Of a DNA stretch of 64,000 nucleotides, positions 35,851 to 60,854 are shown in pieces (the stretch's first letter is position 1; each line of letters starts with the position of its first letter). The notes under the pieces are model-generated. The model did not search any database. It was not told where the DNA came from and saw only the letters and a list, made by a program, of their open reading frames with translations. Made by a program: the position numbers and the translations under genes. Origin of the DNA: Wenzhouxiangella sp. AB-CW3 (GTDB taxonomy: Bacteria; Pseudomonadota; Gammaproteobacteria; Xanthomonadales; Wenzhouxiangellaceae); NCBI RefSeq assembly GCF_014725735.1, contig NZ_CP061368.1:1069225-1133224 (forward strand), written 5' to 3'.

Positions 35851-36953
35851 ACCCGATTCCCATGGTTGACCTCGAGCTGCAATATCGTCAGCTCGAAAAC
35901 GAAATCAACCCGGCCATTGCCGATGTGCTGGCCGGTACCCGTTTCATCCTGGGTCCCAATGTGACCGAGTTCGAACAGGAAGCAGCCGACTATCTGGGGG
36001 TGAAACATGCCCTGGGCTGCGCCTCTGGCACCGACGCCCTGCACCTAGCGCTGAGAGCGGCCGGTATAGGGCCCGGCGACGAGGTGATCACCACGCCGTT
36101 TACCTTCATCGCCACGGCCGAAGCCATCGCCTATTGCGGCGCCACCCCGGTATTCGTCGATATCGACGCGAGGACCTTCAATGTCGATCCGGAGGCCGCG
36201 CGTGCTGCGATCACGGACCGGACGCGGGCACTGCTGCCGGTTCACCTGTTCGGGCAGCCGGCCGACATGGCCGCGCTGCAGGTTCTGGCCGAGGAGCACG
36301 GGCTGTTGCTCATTGAGGACTGCGCACAGTCTTTCGGTGCCGCTATCGATGGCAGGCAGACCGGCTCATTCGGGCTGGCCGGCTGTTTCAGTTTCTTCCC
36401 CAGTAAGAACCTGGGTTGCTATGGCGACGGTGGACTGATCACCACCAGCGACGATCAGCTCTTCGAGACCCTGTGGACGCTGCGCAACCATGGGCGCAAG
36501 GCCGGCGACTACTACCACGAGATGGTGGGCTACAACAGTCGACTCGACGAGATCCAGGCCGCCATCCTGCGCGTCAAGCTCGCTCGTATCGATCAGTTCA
36601 ATGAACAGCGCCGACGCGTGGCACAGGCCTACGGTCGCCTGCTGGGCGACACCGAGCTGGTGATGCCGTATGAGGACGGCATCGGTCGTCATGTCTACCA
36701 CCAGTTCACCATGCTTGTGCCCGAACAGCGGCGCGAGGCCTTGATGCAGGCGCTCAGAGACGAGTCCATCGCCAGTGCCGTCTACTATCCGACACCGCTG
36801 CACCAGCAGCCGGCCTTTGCCGATCTGGGCGTGCACGATGGATTGCCGGTCAGCGAAGAAGTCAGCAAACGCTGCCTTTCGCTGCCGGTCTTTCCGGAGA
36901 TGACCGACGAACAGATCGAGCGGGTCAGCGACTGCCTGAAACGAGCACTGTAG
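35847..36953 (+). CDS. DegT/DnrJ/EryC1/StrS aminotransferase, GnnB-like
   Basis: The 368-residue PLP enzyme has the family features GCASGTDALHLAL (about 57-69), EDCAQSFGA (157-165) and the PLP lysine Lys187 in FFPSKNLGCYGDGG. Such enzymes transaminate a keto-sugar nucleotide, usually with glutamate as amino donor. The start overlaps the oxidoreductase stop by 4 bp, so the two make a two-step 3-amino-sugar module. No glycosyltransferase or acetyltransferase accompanies them, which favours a lipid A (GnnAB-like) role over O-antigen. Confidence 0.85.
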   Translation: MNPIPMVDLELQYRQLENEINPAIADVLAGTRFILGPNVTEFEQEAADYLGVKHALGCASGTDALHLALRAAGIGPGDEVITTPFTFIATAEAIAYCGATPVFVDIDARTFNVDPEAARAAITDRTRALLPVHLFGQPADMAALQVLAEEHGLLLIEDCAQSFGAAIDGRQTGSFGLAGCFSFFPSKNLGCYGDGGLITTSDDQLFETLWTLRNHGRKAGDYYHEMVGYNSRLDEIQAAILRVKLARIDQFNEQRRRVAQAYGRLLGDTELVMPYEDGIGRHVYHQFTMLVPEQRREALMQALRDESIASAVYYPTPLHQQPAFADLGVHDGLPVSEEVSKRCLSLPVFPEMTDEQIERVSDCLKRAL

Positions 36954-36982
36954 CGTCGTCGACAAGAGGTGCCCTGGCCGAG

Positions 36983-38266
36983 ATGTCTTCCATGATCCGA
37001 AGTCTTTGGCTGGCGCTTGTGCCCTGGCTTGCCGTCGGGCCACTCATGGCCGGCGAGCAGGACCAGTTGCAGATGCTGGTCTTTCACAGCGACATCTGTC
37101 CACATTGCCAGGCCCAGGAACCCTTTCTCGATGCTCTGGAAGCGGCGCATGACGGTCTGGTGGTGCAACACTACGAGGTCAGGCAGGTTGCCGAACACCG
37201 CCAGCTTTTCCGCGCTGTGGCCGCGGCTCATCAGGAGAGTGCCGACTCGGTACCGGCCATCTTCGTGGGCGGGCGCGCCTGGGTGGGCGACAGCGGCCTG
37301 ATCCGTCGGCAGATCACCGCTCATGTCGAGCACTGCCTTGAACAGGGCGATTGCCCGGACTCCACCCGAACCGATCAGGTGTTCGAACCTGGAGAGCGAG
37401 CTCGCGATCCGGTTGCCTTCGACCTGCCGTTGGTCGGCACCATCGACCTGATGGTCCAGCCGCTGACACTGTCGACGGCCCTGATCGCCTTTGTGGATGG
37501 CTTCAACCCCTGCTCGCTCTGGGTATTGACGATCCTGCTGGCGCTGGTGATCCATTCCGGTTCGCGCAAACGTATCCTGATCGTCGGGCTCACCTTTCTG
37601 GCGGTGACCGCCTCGATCTACGGCCTGTTCATCACCGGCGTATTCGGCGCCATGAACCTGGTTGCCATGTCGGGCTGGCTGTACCCTGTAGTGGCCGTGT
37701 TCGCGCTGACTTTTGCCCTGGTCAACATCAAGGATTACTTCTGGTTTCAGCGCGGCCTGTCGTTCACCATCGACGAGCGTCACAAGCCGGGGATCTACCG
37801 CCGCATGCGCGACCTGATCCGCAGCGGCCGGTCGGTGACCGCATTGATCGGGGCCACGGTTCTGATGGCTGCCGGAATCGCCTTCATCGAACTGCCGTGC
37901 ACGGCCGGGTTTCCGGTGATCTGGAGCGGCATCGTGGCCAGCCACGATGTCGACTGGCTCCACTTCACATTCCTGCTGGGACTTTATCTTCTGATTTACC
38001 TGGCCATCGAGCTGGTCATCTTCTTTATCGCACTGGCCACGCTGCGGGTGGATCGGTTCGAGGAACGGCATGGCCGCATCCTCAAGCTGATCGGCGGCAT
38101 CATCATGCTGGCGCTGGCCGGGGTCCTGCTGCTTGCTCCGGAGCTGATGCACGATATTCGTGGCGCCCTGGGCGTGTTTTTCGGGGCTTTGCTGGTGACT
38201 GCGGTGATTCTTTTCTTTCACCGAATCCTGCTGCCAAGGCTGGGCCTTCACCTCGGAGACGAGTAA
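36983..38266 (+). CDS. Thioredoxin-like domain fused to a DsbD/CcdA-like membrane domain
   Basis: The 427-residue protein starts with a signal peptide, then a short glutaredoxin/thioredoxin-like domain with CPHC at 39-42. The remainder (about 155-420) has seven to eight hydrophobic segments with two cysteines, in FNPCSLW (Cys177) and ELPCTAGFP (Cys306). These are placed like the electron-carrying pair of CcdA/DsbD. The layout suggests transfer of reducing power across the inner membrane to or from the CPHC domain. It has no DsbD alpha-type domain. The partner is unknown. Confidence 0.75.
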   Translation: MSSMIRSLWLALVPWLAVGPLMAGEQDQLQMLVFHSDICPHCQAQEPFLDALEAAHDGLVVQHYEVRQVAEHRQLFRAVAAAHQESADSVPAIFVGGRAWVGDSGLIRRQITAHVEHCLEQGDCPDSTRTDQVFEPGERARDPVAFDLPLVGTIDLMVQPLTLSTALIAFVDGFNPCSLWVLTILLALVIHSGSRKRILIVGLTFLAVTASIYGLFITGVFGAMNLVAMSGWLYPVVAVFALTFALVNIKDYFWFQRGLSFTIDERHKPGIYRRMRDLIRSGRSVTALIGATVLMAAGIAFIELPCTAGFPVIWSGIVASHDVDWLHFTFLLGLYLLIYLAIELVIFFIALATLRVDRFEERHGRILKLIGGIIMLALAGVLLLAPELMHDIRGALGVFFGALLVTAVILFFHRILLPRLGLHLGDE

Positions 38267-38399
38267 AAAGGGGAATGCTGCGCCCGCTGTCGCGGGCTTG
38301 CCCTTCGGGCTGTCGCTTCGCTCCAGCGATTGTGCGCTGACGCGCACAATTCGAACCTGATTGTTATTGTCGGAGGTTCGAATTGAGCCGCTGGATACG

Positions 38400-38430
38400 A
38401 AAAAGCCCCGTCTGGGGTGACGGGGCTTTT
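38400..38430 (-). terminator. Rho-independent terminator in the outer 180-bp repeat
   Basis: On the minus strand AGCCCCGTCACCCC...GACGGGGCT forms a strong stem followed by TTTTT. It is the equivalent of the terminator at 38580-38607 in the inner copy and would stop transcripts that read through the first one. Confidence 0.8.
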
Positions 38431-38579
38431 CTAAATTTGGCGCGCCCGGAAGGATTGCTGCGCCCGCTGTCGCGGGCTTGCCCTTCGGGCTGTCGCTTCG
38501 CTCCAGCGATTGTGCGCTGACGCGCACAATGCGAACCTGATTGTTATTGTCGGAGGTTCGAATTGAGTCGCTGGATACG

Positions 38580-38607
38580 AAAAAGCCCCGTCAAGGTGAC
38601 AGGGCTT
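38580..38607 (-). terminator. Rho-independent terminator of tRNA-Arg
   Basis: Minus-strand AGCCCTGTCA-CCT-TGACGGGGCT (one G-U pair) is followed by TTTTT. It begins about 11 nt after the CCA end of the tRNA. Confidence 0.88.
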
Positions 38608-38617
38608 AATCTGAAAT

Positions 38618-38694
38618 TGGCGCGCCCGGAAGGATTCGAACCTCCGACCGCCTGGTTCGTAGCCAGGTACTCTATCCAGCTGAGCTACGGGCGC
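38618..38694 (-). tRNA. tRNA-Arg(ACG)
   Basis: The 77-nt gene folds into a full cloverleaf: acceptor GCGCCCG pairs with CGGGCGC, the anticodon arm is CCTGG-CTACGAA-CCAGG with anticodon ACG (read as ICG for CGU/CGC/CGA arginine codons), and the T-loop is TTCGAAT. The CCA end is encoded. A strong promoter precedes it and a terminator follows. Confidence 0.97.
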
Positions 38695-38709
38695 GTCGCA
38701 AAGCGAGGC

Positions 38710-38738
38710 ATTATGGAGAAGGGGGGTGCTTCTGTCAA
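38710..38738 (-). promoter_or_regulatory. Sigma-70 promoter of tRNA-Arg
   Basis: On the minus strand TTGACA is followed, after a 17-bp spacer, by CATAAT. The GC-rich discriminator (GCCTCGC) just downstream is typical of promoters under stringent control. Confidence 0.85.
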
Positions 38739-38752
38739 GTCCGTTTTGGATC

Positions 38753-38890
38753 CTGTCGCCCCGGAATCGCCGCAGGCGATATCCGGGACCCCGCACGGTG
38801 GTCGTGGCATGGGGTTGAACAAGGGCTGCCTTGCAGATGCTGGGCGTGCGAGGTCCCGGCTCTTCGGCCGGGACGACGGGGAGGGTGGGG
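38753..38890. repeat. Single dispersed copy of the 172-bp repeat element
   Basis: The stretch is clearly similar, in the same orientation, to the unit repeated seven times at 58382-59585. It shares CGGAATCGCCG, AGGCGATATCCGGGA, GGCATGGGGTTGAAC and a GGTCCCGG/CCGGGA hairpin near the end. It starts 15 bp behind the -35 box of the tRNA promoter and is more diverged than the array copies. Confidence 0.8.
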
Positions 38891-38893
38891 TTT

Positions 38894-38920
38894 GAAGTGT
38901 GAAGTGTGAAGTGTGAAGTG
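38894..38920. repeat. GAAGTGT heptamer repeat
   Basis: Nearly four tandem copies of GAAGTGT directly follow the dispersed element. The same heptamer occurs ten times next to the array near 58.3 kb. The remaining 38921-39036 contains TATAAT at 38997, a likely -10 for the next gene, but no gene. Confidence 0.9.
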
Positions 38921-39036
38921 GAGGCGGCATCCTTTGGCGAGTGGGTTCCTGTCCGACAGATACAGCGGATGCGCACATGCAATATTAGATAGGGCTTATA
39001 ATAACGGTTTTATCCAGCATCAGGATGCCCAGGCCC

Positions 39037-39993
39037 ATGACTGAATCCCGTTCCGAACCTCTCTGTGCCCATGTGCCGCTGCCGTTGTTTGCCTCGGTCA
39101 TGGGGATTGCCGGGCTCGGGCTGGTCTGGCGTGCAGCGGAGGAGGCCTGGGGGCTGGCGCCGGTGGTGTCGGTTGCGGCCACGGTGGCGGCCGCCGTGGT
39201 CTTTGTCGTTTTGCTGGCGCTTTATGTCTGCAAGTCGGTTCGCTATCGTTCCAGGGTCATGGTGGAGCTGGCCCACCCGGTGCGCATCAATTTTCTGCCG
39301 ACACTTTCGATCAACCTCATTCTGCTGGGCATACTGTCCAGACCCTGGCTGGGGCCAGTGTCCGACGGGCTGTGGCAGGCCGGTGCATTGCTGCAGCTGA
39401 TTCTGACCATTGTCATCGTCAATGTCTGGTTCGAGGCCGAGCGTCCGGCGGATTCGATCAACCCTGCCTGGTTCATACCGGCGGTTGGCAATGTGCTGGT
39501 GCCGCTGGCCGCGATACCTTCCGGGCAGGAGTTGGTGGCCTGGTTTTTCATGAGTATCGGTCTGTTTTTCTGGGTCATTCTGGGCACGATGGTGTTCTAC
39601 CGACTGGTCACCAAGCCTCCCATGCAGCCCCCCATGCAGCCAACGCTGGTAGTGATGCTGGCGCCCCCCTCGGTGGCCTTTCTGTCCTGGCTCCAGATCG
39701 CCGGTGAGCTCAACGGGCCGGGCTATTTCTTCTACGCCGTTGCGCTGCTTACATTTCTTGTGCTGCTCCCACAGCTACCGCGGTTTTTCCGTCTGCCCTT
39801 TTTCCCGTCCTGGTGGGCCTATACCTTTCCATTGGCGGCGTTCACCGTGTCCAGTCTGGCGTTTGTCGAGCAGTACGGTTTGGAGCCGGGGGCAATTCAG
39901 ATTGGATTGGTGGCATTGACTACCGCGGTGATTCTGCTTGTCGCCGGCCGGACCATCGTGGCTGTTGCCCGGGGAGAAATGAGCAAGCACTGA
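39037..39993 (+). CDS. SLAC1/TehA-family (TDT) membrane transporter
   Basis: The protein has about ten evenly spaced hydrophobic segments and 318 residues, with PLPLFASVMGIAGLGLVWR near the start, as expected for the voltage-dependent anion channel / tellurite-resistance TehA family. ATG 39037 is preferred to 39025 because the latter leaves no room for a ribosome-binding site. The transported anion is unknown. A TATAAT lies about 35 bp upstream. A cupin protein follows closely. Confidence 0.8.
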   Translation: MTESRSEPLCAHVPLPLFASVMGIAGLGLVWRAAEEAWGLAPVVSVAATVAAAVVFVVLLALYVCKSVRYRSRVMVELAHPVRINFLPTLSINLILLGILSRPWLGPVSDGLWQAGALLQLILTIVIVNVWFEAERPADSINPAWFIPAVGNVLVPLAAIPSGQELVAWFFMSIGLFFWVILGTMVFYRLVTKPPMQPPMQPTLVVMLAPPSVAFLSWLQIAGELNGPGYFFYAVALLTFLVLLPQLPRFFRLPFFPSWWAYTFPLAAFTVSSLAFVEQYGLEPGAIQIGLVALTTAVILLVAGRTIVAVARGEMSKH

Positions 39994-58270: not shown

Positions 58271-58286
58271 AGGTGGGTTCTTGGTT

Positions 58287-58385
58287 TTAGGTGTTAGGTG
58301 TTAGGTGTTAGGTGTGAAGTGTGAAGTGTGAAGTGTGAAGTGTGAAGTGTGAAGTGTGAAGTGTGAAGTGTGAAGTGTGAAGTGT
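58287..58385. repeat. TTAGGTG and GAAGTGT heptamer arrays
   Basis: Four copies of a TTAGGTG-type heptamer are followed by ten perfect copies of GAAGTGT (58316-58385), which run straight into the first 172-bp repeat. The same TTAGGTG heptamer reappears at the far end of the array (from 59587). Confidence 0.95.
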
Positions 58386-59585
58386 GAAGGAGTGGCGGGC
58401 ATGTGCCCTCTCCCTGTCGTCCCGGAATCGCCGTAGGCGATATCCGGGATCTCGCACGGCGGGTCTGGCATGGGGTTGAACGAAGGCTGTCGTGTCGATG
58501 TCGGGCGTGCGGGGTCCCGGCGCTGCGGCCGGGATGACGGGGGATGAGGGAAGGTGTGAAGGAGTGGCGGGCATGTGCCCTCTCCCTGTCGTCCCGGAAT
58601 CGCCGTAGGCGATATCCGGGATCTCGCACGGCGGGTCTGGCATGGGGTTGAACGAAGGCTGTCGTGTCGATGTCGGGCGTGCGGGGTCCCGGCGCTGCGG
58701 CCGGGATGACGGGGGATGAGGGAAGGTGTGAAGGAGTGGCGGGCATGTGCCCTCTCCCTGTCGTCCCGGAATCGCCGTAGGCGATATCCGGGATCTGGCA
58801 CGGTGGGCCTGGCATGGGGTTGAACGAAGACTGCCGTGCCGATGCTGGGCGTGCGGGGTCCCGGCGCTGCGGCCGGGATGACGGGGGAAGAGGGAAGGTG
58901 TGAAGGAGTGGCGGGCATGTGCCCTCTCCCTGTCGTCCCGGAATCGCCGTAGGCGATATCCGGGATCTCGCACGGCGGGCCTGGCATGGGGTTGAACGAA
59001 GACTGCCGTGCCGATGCTGGGCGTGCGGGGTCCCGGCGCTGTGGCCGGGATGACGGGGGAAGAGGGAAGGTGTGAAGGAGTGGCGGGTGTGTGCCCTCTC
59101 CCTGTCGTCCCGGAGTCGCCGTAGGCGATATCCGGGATCTCGCACGGCGGGCCTGGCATGGGGTTGAACGAAGACTGCCGTGCCGATGCTGGGCGTGCGG
59201 GGTCCCGGCGCTGCGGCCGGGATGACGGGGGAAGAGGGAAGGTGTGAAGGAGTGGCGGGCATGTGCCCTCTCCCTGTCGTCCCGGAATCGCCGTAGGCGA
59301 TATCCGGGATCTCGCACGGCGGGTCTGGCATGGGGTTGAACGAAGGCTGTCGTGTCGATGTCGGGCGTGCGGGGTCCCGGCGCTGCGGCCGGGATGACGG
59401 GGGATGAGGGAAGGTGTGAAGGAGTGGCGGGCATGTGCCCTCTCCCTGTCGTCCCGGAATCGCCGTAGGCGATATCCGGGATCTCGCACGGCGGGTCTGG
59501 CATGGGGTTGAACGAAGGCTGTCGTGTCGATGTCGGGCGTGCGGGGTCCCGGCGCTGCGGCCGGGATGACGGGGGATGAGGGAAG
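58382..59585. repeat. Seven tandem copies of a 172-bp repeat
   Basis: Units start at 58382, 58554, 58726, 58898, 59070, 59242 and 59414, each exactly 172 bp and nearly identical. Each has outer inverted ends (GTCGTCCCGG and CCGGGATGAC), a hairpin around GGAATCGCCG-TAGGCGATATCC and one at GGTCCCGGC-GCTGC-GGCCGGGA. Copies 1, 2, 6 and 7 form one sequence variant and 3, 4 and 5 another, which suggests duplication of blocks. All three minus-strand frames are open across the array, but because 172 is not a multiple of three the frame changes with each unit, so I do not regard them as genes. Confidence 0.97.
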
Positions 59586-59588
59586 GTG

Positions 59589-60854
59589 TTAGGTGTTGGG
59601 GGTTAGTTCTTTTACTTTGACCTTGCGGATTCGTTTGTCGACCATGTCGACGATGGTGAAGATCTGGTTGCCGATTTTGAGGCTGGTGCGGCCGTCGGGT
59701 AGCGATTCCAGGTGCTCCAGGATCAGGCCGTTGACGGTTTTGGCGCCGCTGGTGGGTAGTTCCCAGTCGAGGCGGCGGTTGAGCATGCGTAGCGTGGCGC
59801 CGCCGTCGATGATCCAGCCGCCGTCTTCGAGTTTGCGAATCAGCTTCTGACGGCCGCCGCCTTCGGTGGTGTATTCGCCGACGATCTCTTCGAGGATGTC
59901 GTCCAGGGTCACCAGGCCCTGAATGTCGCCGTATTCGTCGACCACCAGGGCCAGGCGCCGTTCGCGGCTCTGAAATTCGAGCATCTGCTGGGTCAACGGT
60001 GTGCCTTCGGGGACGAAGTAGGGGCTGCGCACTGCCTTGAGCAGGCCGTCGCGGTCGAGGCGGTTCTGGATCAGGCGCGAGATGATGGTGCGGATGTGCA
60101 GCAGGCCGACGATATGGTCCAGGTCGCCGCGCCAGACCGGCATGCGCGTGTAGATGCTGCCGGTCAGGGCCTGCATGATGTCGTCCCAGTCGGCGTCGAG
60201 ATCGATGCCGACGATGTCTTGTCGCGGCACCATGACATCGTCGACCGTGCCATGTTCGAGGTCGAGGATGTTGATCAGCATCTGCCGGTGATCGAGCGAG
60301 ATCTGCCGGCCGCCCTCCTTGACCAGCGTGCGCAACTCTTCGCGGCTTAGTGAATCCTGGTGCAGCCCCTGCTTCTTGACCCCGAAGGGTCTAAGCAGGG
60401 TTGCCGCCATGAGATTGACCAGCCACACGGCCGGGTAGAGCACCCTGAGCAGCGGCGTCAAAACATAGCTGGCCGGGTAGGCAATGCGCTCGGGGAAGAG
60501 CGCGGCCAGGGTCTTGGGGGCCACCTCGGCAAAGATCAGGATGACCAGGGTCAGGGCCAGCGTAGACACCCAGATGCCGCCTTCGCCCAGCAGGCGCAAG
60601 GCAATCACGGTGGCGATGGATGCGGCCAGGATATTGATCAGGTTGTTGCCCAGCAGAATCAGGCCGAACATGCGGTCGGGCTTGGCCAGCAGGCGCTGGG
60701 CCAGGCGCGCACCCCGGTGGCCCTTGCCGACCTGGTGCCGCAGCCGATAGCGGTTGAGCGCCACCAGCCCGGTCTCGGAGCTGGAGAAGAATGCCGACAA
60801 CACCACCAGAACGGCCAGCAGAATGAACAGCGTCGTCAGGGGAAGCTGGGCCAT
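59589..60854 (-). CDS. corB: CorB/HlyC-type CNNM transporter
   Basis: The 421-residue protein has an N-terminal DUF21 membrane domain (four hydrophobic segments, about 5-150), a tandem CBS-domain pair (about 200-325) and a C-terminal CorC_HlyC domain (about 340-415). This is the CNNM/CorB family linked to magnesium or cobalt handling. Location next to a ypjD-like gene and ffh matches the E. coli yfjD-ypjD-ffh region. The repeat array ends 3 bp beyond its stop codon. Confidence 0.88.
   Translation of the reverse strand: MAQLPLTTLFILLAVLVVLSAFFSSSETGLVALNRYRLRHQVGKGHRGARLAQRLLAKPDRMFGLILLGNNLINILAASIATVIALRLLGEGGIWVSTLALTLVILIFAEVAPKTLAALFPERIAYPASYVLTPLLRVLYPAVWLVNLMAATLLRPFGVKKQGLHQDSLSREELRTLVKEGGRQISLDHRQMLINILDLEHGTVDDVMVPRQDIVGIDLDADWDDIMQALTGSIYTRMPVWRGDLDHIVGLLHIRTIISRLIQNRLDRDGLLKAVRSPYFVPEGTPLTQQMLEFQSRERRLALVVDEYGDIQGLVTLDDILEEIVGEYTTEGGGRQKLIRKLEDGGWIIDGGATLRMLNRRLDWELPTSGAKTVNGLILEHLESLPDGRTSLKIGNQIFTIVDMVDKRIRKVKVKELTPNT

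Follow-up and report, generated by a model that had tools for sequence, protein, structure and literature searches.

A tandem array behind tRNA-Arg(ACG)

The genome of Wenzhouxiangella sp. AB-CW3 consists of one contig of 3,844,697 bases, and passages of a report on this strain count 46 transfer RNA (tRNA) genes (PMC7691419). We describe a repeat array joined to one tRNA gene, tRNA-Arg(ACG), and the structured element that forms the core of its units. The array lies in a stretch of 64,000 nucleotides (nt) of contig NZ_CP061368.1 (positions 1,069,225 to 1,133,224), hereafter the window, whose own numbering is used throughout. The only tRNA that ARAGORN finds in the window is tRNA-Arg(ACG), on the minus strand at 38694-38618 (Rfam tRNA model, 65.7 bits), with the 5' strand of its T-arm at 38648-38635 and its last 19 nt at 38636-38618. 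Two tandem units follow on its 3' side and are read in the tRNA's own direction. A first-pass annotation, made from the letters alone, had reported two units with an exact 180-bp period behind the tRNA. The computed period is 180 nt (38452-38631 and 38272-38451, identity 91%), in agreement with it; the strand, which it had left unstated, is minus for both array and tRNA. Thirteen of the 16 differences between the units fall in the trailer and terminator stretch, and three in the remaining ~140 nt.

Unit 1, the proximal one (38438-38617, 180 nt), runs from the trailer to a copy of the tRNA 3' end with CCA; unit 2 (38272-38437) has the same order of parts without this terminal copy. From 5' to 3', each unit carries a trailer, an intrinsic terminator, an inverted T-arm segment, a spacer of ~10 nt, the direct T-arm start AGGTTCG, and a core of four hairpins. 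The terminator of unit 1 (38579-38607) stands directly 3' of the tRNA, and that of unit 2, an inverted repeat, is at 38400-38430. The inverted segment (TTCGAACCTCCGAC, 14 nt; 38549-38562 and 38369-38382) is in both units a perfect complement of tRNA positions 38648-38635, and is specific to tRNA-Arg(ACG). Cores and their T-loop junctions (GGTTCG...ATCC) were delimited with R1, a covariance model of seven cores from whose training those of the window were left out, at 38452-38537 (51.6 bits) and 38272-38357 (52.2 bits). The stem-loops (SL) are SL1 38530-38509, SL2 38508-38494, SL3 38490-38480 and SL4 38477-38462 in unit 1, and SL1 38350-38329, SL2 38328-38314, SL3 38310-38300 and SL4 38297-38282 in unit 2. 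A terminator, a T-arm-like inverted repeat and four hairpins per unit, as first proposed, were thus all located in both. The further claim that 19 nt of tRNA end with CCA close each unit was half right, having counted the tRNA itself: unit 1 re-enters the tRNA where the T-loop ends (AATCCTTCCGGGCGCGCCA, 38456-38438), which gives the sole extra copy of the last 19 nt, and unit 2 ends in GCAGCATTCC and has lost it.

The core at other tRNA genes of the genome

DNA and pattern searches together with R1 place the core also at tRNA-Arg(CCG), Thr(CGT), Ser(CGA), Ser(GCT), Ser(TGA), Ser(GGA), Gln(CTG) and Glu(TTC), and a remnant at Thr(TGT) was identified by eye. All 17 R1 matches in the genome (E<=1) are within 500 nt of a tRNA and on its strand; 500 nt on either side of the 46 tRNA genes make up roughly 1.3% of the genome. 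Because the same core recurs at other tRNAs, and because a 140-nt stretch of unit 1 (38579-38440) folds with z = -6.05 against dinucleotide shuffles, the array is more than a product of chance.

At the usual junction the 5' half of the T-arm (GGTTCGAA) is followed by the core and then by the 3' half of the tRNA, all on the tRNA's strand. In the common form the core replaces nothing, and its removal restores TTCGAA-TCC, a normal T-loop. Two layouts occur. The downstream layout is that of the window: tRNA, often a terminator, inverted T-arm, direct T-arm start, core, and tRNA 3' end. In the upstream layout, a tRNA leader and 5' half up to GGTTCGAA precede the core, which is followed by a shortened 3' half and then by the intact tRNA; such units keep roughly the first 8-13 nt of the 3' half (loci L009, L012 and L014, and L085 in a relative). 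At L014 (1230-1760, minus strand), both upstream pseudo-tRNA-Ser copies have an altered anticodon stem-loop (CTCCCTTGGCTCAAGGGAG) relative to the intact tRNA-Ser(GCT).

Distribution in the genus and family

According to the first-pass annotation, an absence of similar units in relatives, together with no transcript beyond 38580, would point to a local duplication without function. With R1, tRNA-linked units were found in 24 of 30 genomes of the genus, own genome included. With stricter filters, matches were obtained in 32 of 398 genomes of the order, all of them Wenzhouxiangellaceae. This restriction is a limit of R1, since RF00391, the Rfam model of RtT, reaches other families and adds two genomes without an R1 match, one in the genus (G006) and one in the family (G048).

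The genus test set comprised 121 R1 matches (E<=0.01) over 84 loci. ARAGORN places a tRNA within 500 nt of 102 of them, and the strand is shared in 102 of 102; 15 of the remaining 19 are within about 410 nt of a contig end. Host tRNAs are Arg (ACG, CCG and CCT), Ser (four isoacceptors), Thr (two), Glu and Gln, and two matches nearest a Pro gene have Arg-like flanks. In 70 of 99 testable cores, the right flank consists of at least 8 nt of the neighbouring tRNA's own 3' half. At L098, L112, L119 and L143, a core-like element lies ~140 nt 3' of tRNA-Glu with a right flank unlike the 3' half of that tRNA; tRNA-Ala precedes tRNA-Glu in L098, L112 and L119.

In other genera of the family, 30 of 47 R1 matches were examined. 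A tRNA lies within 500 nt of twenty and shares the strand with 19 of them; five are in loci without a tRNA call, each within 130 nt of an end of the stretch, and five are further from a tRNA, three of these in one array interspersed with other genes (L179). In this array (L179/L353; G076:C33, Wenzhouxiangella sp. XN79A), Arg(ACG)-flanked units extend over ~6.8 kilobases behind one tRNA, with genes between them, one encoding a subtilase, and a GNAT acetyltransferase gene at the last unit. There are also two related open reading frames (ORFs) of ~90-100 codons, each placed behind a unit, and what follows the array's last core is joined as the remains of a tRNA-Arg body in decay. Cores in relatives are often within 200 nt of a contig end (e.g. 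L070, L107, L135 and L141); the arrays seem to break short-read assemblies, and counts from draft genomes may be too low.

Structure of the core

The alignment of seven cores contains 32 base pairs with 100% of cells paired, and seven pairs are changed on both sides. Slid controls reach 32-42% paired cells, and none of 500 shuffles equals its covariation. Among 16 minimal cores from three phyla, 95% of cells are paired and six of nine pairs show double changes, compared with 24-44% paired in slid controls. In SL2, facing columns hold G and A in 16 of 16 minimal cores, and in 14 of 16 an A.G or A.A step follows, forming a tandem G.A; passages of a covariation paper note a tandem GA motif in RtT (PMC7657543). 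A5 and R2, the latter a model of the minimal core, were built from sequences chosen by exact pattern, and their invariant flanks therefore arise by construction.

The inverted T-arm segment

In 42 downstream Arg and Thr units, the inverted segment matches the complement of its own tRNA at 12.2 of 14 positions on average, and is an exact 14/14 complement in 28. The exact cases are 7 of 16 for Arg(ACG), 2 of 5 for Arg(CCG), 6 of 7 for Arg(CCT), 8 of 9 for Thr(CGT) and 5 of 5 for Thr(TGT). The T-arm of Thr(CGT) occurs in four versions, one of which has the T-loop TTCGAC, and for each of them the inverted segment is an exact mirror. Units at Ser, Glu and Gln carry no copy of the 5' strand; their matches at 6-10 of 14 positions also provide a rough background. 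In many Ser units there is instead a segment resembling the complement of the tRNA 3' strand, as in the E. coli sequence. The fidelity of the inverted copy could be kept by gene conversion or by pairing.

An A-rich spacer separates the inverted from the direct T-arm. Of 23 distinct spacers, 17 contain two ARN triplets in succession, compared with 7.7 in shuffles; this motif is a site for the distal face of Hfq and is treated here as a lead only.

Relation to RtT

Passages of the literature present rtT chiefly as the by-product of a single tRNA operon in E. coli. The first-pass annotation had compared the array with the repeats of E. coli tyrT, and the comparison holds: tyrT has the same order of parts, and RF00391 passes its cut-off in relatives of the window units. 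Three units spaced 178 nt apart follow tyrV, each consisting of GGGGAAGGAT (the inverted T-arm), GGTTCGAC, hairpins including ACCCGAAGGG, and then AATCCTTCCCCCACCACCA; no terminator was seen by eye between tRNA and core. The annotated RttR begins 8 nt behind the tRNA, ends at the CCA of the first tRNA-end copy, and is in this respect the counterpart of unit 1 of the window.

Shared with rtT/RttR are tandem units of ~180 nt after a tRNA, a copy of the tRNA 3' end with CCA, an inverted T-arm before the core, a core placed between GGTTCGA and the tRNA 3' half, and a hairpin of the CCCGAAGGG type. In the window, the unit adjoins the tRNA on the same strand with a copy of its 3' end, the tandem units fall in the range of ~178-180 nt, and an inverted T-arm segment stands ahead of the core. 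Several differences are also apparent: the window units are below detection by RF00391, a terminator stands ahead of the window core, the inverted part copies the 5' strand of the T-arm in Arg and Thr units whereas it copies the 3' strand in E. coli Tyr, and Wenzhouxiangella has several isoacceptors per genome as well as upstream pseudo-tRNA units.

RF00391, with a gathering cut-off of 45 bits, gives 134-138 bits for the E. coli tyrT units, 178 nt apart, and 45.9, 45.9 and 41.9 bits for a Wenzhouxiangella Ser array (L116). It matches 20 of 33 family genomes at E<=0.1, five of which pass the cut-off (G048, G042, G006, G043 and G016). The best score in the genome of the window, at a Ser(GCT) unit, is 23.8 bits, below the cut-off. 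Conversely, R1 applied to 31 RtT-bearing loci matches 13 at E<0.02 and 18 at E<=0.05, with up to 40.7 bits in other families, and R2 scores the window at 15.5 bits (E 0.08). On sequence comparison, kinship of the array with RtT is well supported; the window units score below the Rfam cut-off and are therefore not assigned as members.

Among 369 gammaproteobacterial genomes, 65 have an RF00391 match at E<=0.001, and 23 are above the cut-off. Of the best 30 loci, 27 have a tRNA within 500 nt, always on the same strand, and the match is downstream in 24; the host tRNAs of these 27 are Gln (10), Ser (9) and Tyr (8). L310 counted as a miss in this tally owing to a coordinate error; at that position (L221) a tRNA-Cys lies at a distance of 88 nt. 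Published passages also describe RtT outside tyrT. In A. pleuropneumoniae, the RtT-family RNAs Arrc20 and Arrc21 adjoin tRNA-Asn and tRNA-Lys, in upstream position and at other host tRNAs than in Wenzhouxiangella, and RNA was detected by reverse transcription polymerase chain reaction; the same source speaks of 'many other tRNA operons' for RtT in E. coli (PMC4986893). In a passage on Thioalkalivibrio gene expression, RtT RNA is reported and is up at 10 C (PMC8092127).

Occurrence in other phyla

A strict pattern (GGTTCGAACCGAGC, 3-30 nt, GAGCTCG) was searched in one genome for each of 84,980 species and gave 114 matches in 89 stretches. Eighty are within 500 nt of a tRNA, 79 of them on its strand. 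The matches include Wenzhouxiangellaceae and two further groups. In Gemmatimonadota, T-loop inserts are found at tRNA-Ser as tandem units ~86-123 nt apart; in Bacteroidales they are found at tRNA-Cys as upstream units. Some fifteen matches in other taxa lack flanks of this kind and appear to be due to chance. In the phylum of a Gemmatimonadales genome (G766), R2 matches at least 17 of 395 genomes, and in that of a Bacteroidales genome (G762) at least 4 of 395, query genomes included; owing to strict filters, these prevalences are lower bounds. A Bacteroidota variant (CACGAGC...GACTGATGGAGG...TAATCC and similar) was seen near Val, Met and Arg tRNAs (L333-L336, L321 and L328). L321 has an inverted T-arm, GGATGAGAA, as do E. 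coli and Wenzhouxiangella Ser units. The earlier suggestion of a wider class of tRNA-linked repeats is thus borne out in the genus, in Gammaproteobacteria (RF00391) and in two further phyla. In the open-licence literature, we found no description of T-loop-inserted repeats beyond RtT. Four features are new as far as our literature searches reach: the rule of insertion at the T-loop, the pseudo-tRNA layout of upstream units, an inverted segment that follows its host tRNA, and the presence of such inserts in two further phyla.

Similarity between cores and neighbouring genes

When 102 cores were assigned their nearest neighbours, 22 were closest to a core at another tRNA of the same genome, 37 to one at the same tRNA in another genome, and 43 to neither. 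As these counts alone are mixed, a permutation test was used. Across 75 arrays, genome and tRNA both explain core similarity, with excess identities of 0.037 and 0.044 respectively; in neither case was any of 2000 permutations as high as observed. Direct head-to-tail core multimers are present in L100 and L133. Gain and loss are visible between G045, a one-contig genome with matches only at Arg(ACG) in three units, and G000, with matches at nine tRNAs. The T-loop rule, copied flanks, multimers, patchiness and dual similarity fit an element that stays at tRNAs and is exchanged within a genome.

The six proteins flanking the array are an oxidoreductase, an aminotransferase, the product of the nearest gene (without a family), SLAC1, a KDPG aldolase and an S49 peptidase; no integrase is among them. 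Y1/RAYT genes (PF01797) were found in 19 of 43 family genomes, and none was found in the core-bearing G090 (99% complete), G024 (97%), or G003, G013 and G019 (99%). RAYT/Y1 was rejected as a driver, as Y1 genes are uncorrelated with the cores. This sets the cores apart from REP/BIME elements, which are likewise short palindromic repeats in intergenic DNA; the Wenzhouxiangella cores, in addition, are placed at tRNA T-loops and on one strand. Passages of one study link some rtT-like elements to BIMEs (PMC2965389).

Integron attC sites are oriented, rich in hairpins and tandem. The units share these features and differ in that the Wenzhouxiangella cores are anchored at tRNAs; genes between units were seen in one genome only (L179).

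Discussion

Judged by its sequence, the hairpin core joins the 5' half of the T-arm to the 3' half of the tRNA within the T-loop, beside an intact copy of the same tRNA. With moderate confidence, we regard the array as a tRNA-anchored structured element of RtT type that is probably able to spread between tRNA genes and plausibly gives an RNA of ~180 nt. The core would enter T-loops and so pass from one tRNA gene to another. Insertions would survive only where the tRNA gene is partly duplicated along with them, which keeps a working tRNA in place, and the repeats would multiply through recombination between direct copies. The core may act as an RNA; such a function is plausible because of the structure and the RtT RNAs reported elsewhere. 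Transcription of upstream units might start from the duplicated tRNA leader, and that of downstream units might result from reading through the terminator of the tRNA. The transcript would then be trimmed at the CCA of the tRNA-end copy, like RttR in E. coli, and from its layout the array could plausibly yield a ~180-nt RNA (38617-38438). Possible leads on its role are pairing of the inverted segment with the T-arm of the host tRNA and a protein that binds the tandem G.A hairpin.

A number of observations weigh against this interpretation. The release of a small RNA, which the first-pass annotation had put forward as possible, is so far unsupported at this locus. The terminator precedes the core in the sequence of the window, and a simple consensus scan without background control finds one separating the tRNA from the core in 45 of the 59 downstream arrays in the genus, so that RNA would have to come from read-through or from upstream units. 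The same simple scan finds a terminator after the core in 29 of 59. RF00391 has no match at E<=1 in 37600-39600 and misses the window units, and R1 scores E. coli weakly (18.8 bits, E 0.02). Eight single short cores fold weakly or no better than shuffles (z 0.1 to -2.2), and it is therefore the comparative evidence that carries the structure claim. The inverted segment is inexact in 14 of the 42 Arg and Thr units, nine of them at Arg(ACG) like those of the window, and gene conversion can also explain flanks that track the host tRNA. Twenty-nine of 99 cores fail the 8-nt right-flank test, including all six Glu-linked ones; the others are nested, have degraded ends or stand next to a tRNA of another kind. 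Only 22 of 102 cores are nearest to a core at another tRNA of the same genome. No movement enzyme was found among Y1/RAYT and the six neighbouring genes. The strict core pattern, the one pattern used there, is absent from all viral contigs, and carriage by phages was dropped as a candidate on that ground.

The best of the alternatives, though doubtful in our view, is that the array is purely selfish DNA without a role as RNA. It would then be a minimal mobile element, non-autonomous, that recognises the T-arm at the DNA level, perhaps as a folded single strand, and whose hairpins serve a recombinase. Precise T-loop junctions, the core multimers of L133 and L100, the likeness of cores at different tRNAs within a genome, and the patchy occurrence of the same core at many isoacceptors in three phyla are what such an element would leave. 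Yet the search of Y1/RAYT and the six neighbours identified no recombinase, RAYT/Y1 is uncorrelated with the cores, and in the genus 102 of 102 cores lie on the strand of their tRNA. The tandem G.A, the covarying stems and the reports of RtT RNA elsewhere fit an RNA as well.

The terminators before 45 and after 29 of the 59 downstream cores also raise the question whether the array is a cis-acting device of the tRNA operon, a cluster of terminators or attenuators that gives no separate RNA. In Rfam, RtT has the type Cis-reg, and passages of one study list candidate rtT-like attenuators in Enterobacteria (PMC2965389). We consider this improbable: termination in cis would require no inverted segment specific to the tRNA and no copy of its 3' end with CCA, and the core mostly lies behind the terminator.

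A scar of a tyrosine-integrase island, in which the extra tRNA 3' end would be an attachment-site repeat left by integration into the tRNA gene, is very improbable. Its attraction is that the direct repeat of the tRNA 3' end begins in the T-loop, as at tRNA attachment sites of such integrases. The insert in the window is nevertheless a multimeric, structured unit of 180 nt, its core is common to unrelated tRNAs, and upstream units duplicate the 5' half of the tRNA instead. This candidate was rejected, no integrase being present among the six flanking genes, to which the scan was confined. A function-free local tandem duplication, to which the exact 180-nt period and 91% identity would be suited, is hardly credible, and in its simple form refuted, since the core is shared by other tRNAs and by relatives, its pairing is conserved, and 13 of the 16 differences between units lie in the trailer with three elsewhere.

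Returning to the tRNA-anchored element, we tentatively suggest a broader scheme, in which RtT would be the best-known case of RNA-structured mobile elements of ~40-100 nt that occur across phyla, enter tRNA genes exactly at the T-loop in one orientation, and persist because part of the host gene is duplicated around them; Arg and Thr units might in addition give RNA with a 14-nt antisense to the T-arm of their own tRNA. If the T-loop anatomy is general, one insertion rule (core between TTCGAA and the tRNA 3' half) would link rtT, the gammaproteobacterial repeats and the inserts of Gemmatimonadota and Bacteroidota. Questions on the role of rtT-type RNA, on the spread of the repeats and on the retained intact tRNA would then become testable.

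Annotation and other repeats in the window

The insertion rule would be of use to annotators, because the arrays create tRNA fragments and false ORFs, often at contig ends. In the window, the ORFs 38563-38895 (plus strand) and 36785-38527 (minus strand) are translations of the antisense strand of the tRNA (ARPEGFEPPTAWFVARYSIQLSYGR) or of the cores (RVSAQSLERSDSPKGKPATAGA, twice); the tRNA-linked element is thus a source of false gene calls. Elsewhere in the window, seven direct repeats of 172 bp, 97% alike, follow eleven GTGTGAA heptamers (58283-59589). The 172-bp unit contains CCCGGAATCGCCG(T/C)AGGCGATATCCGGG, which is also found at ~38760-38790, near TGAAGTG heptamers (38893-38920).
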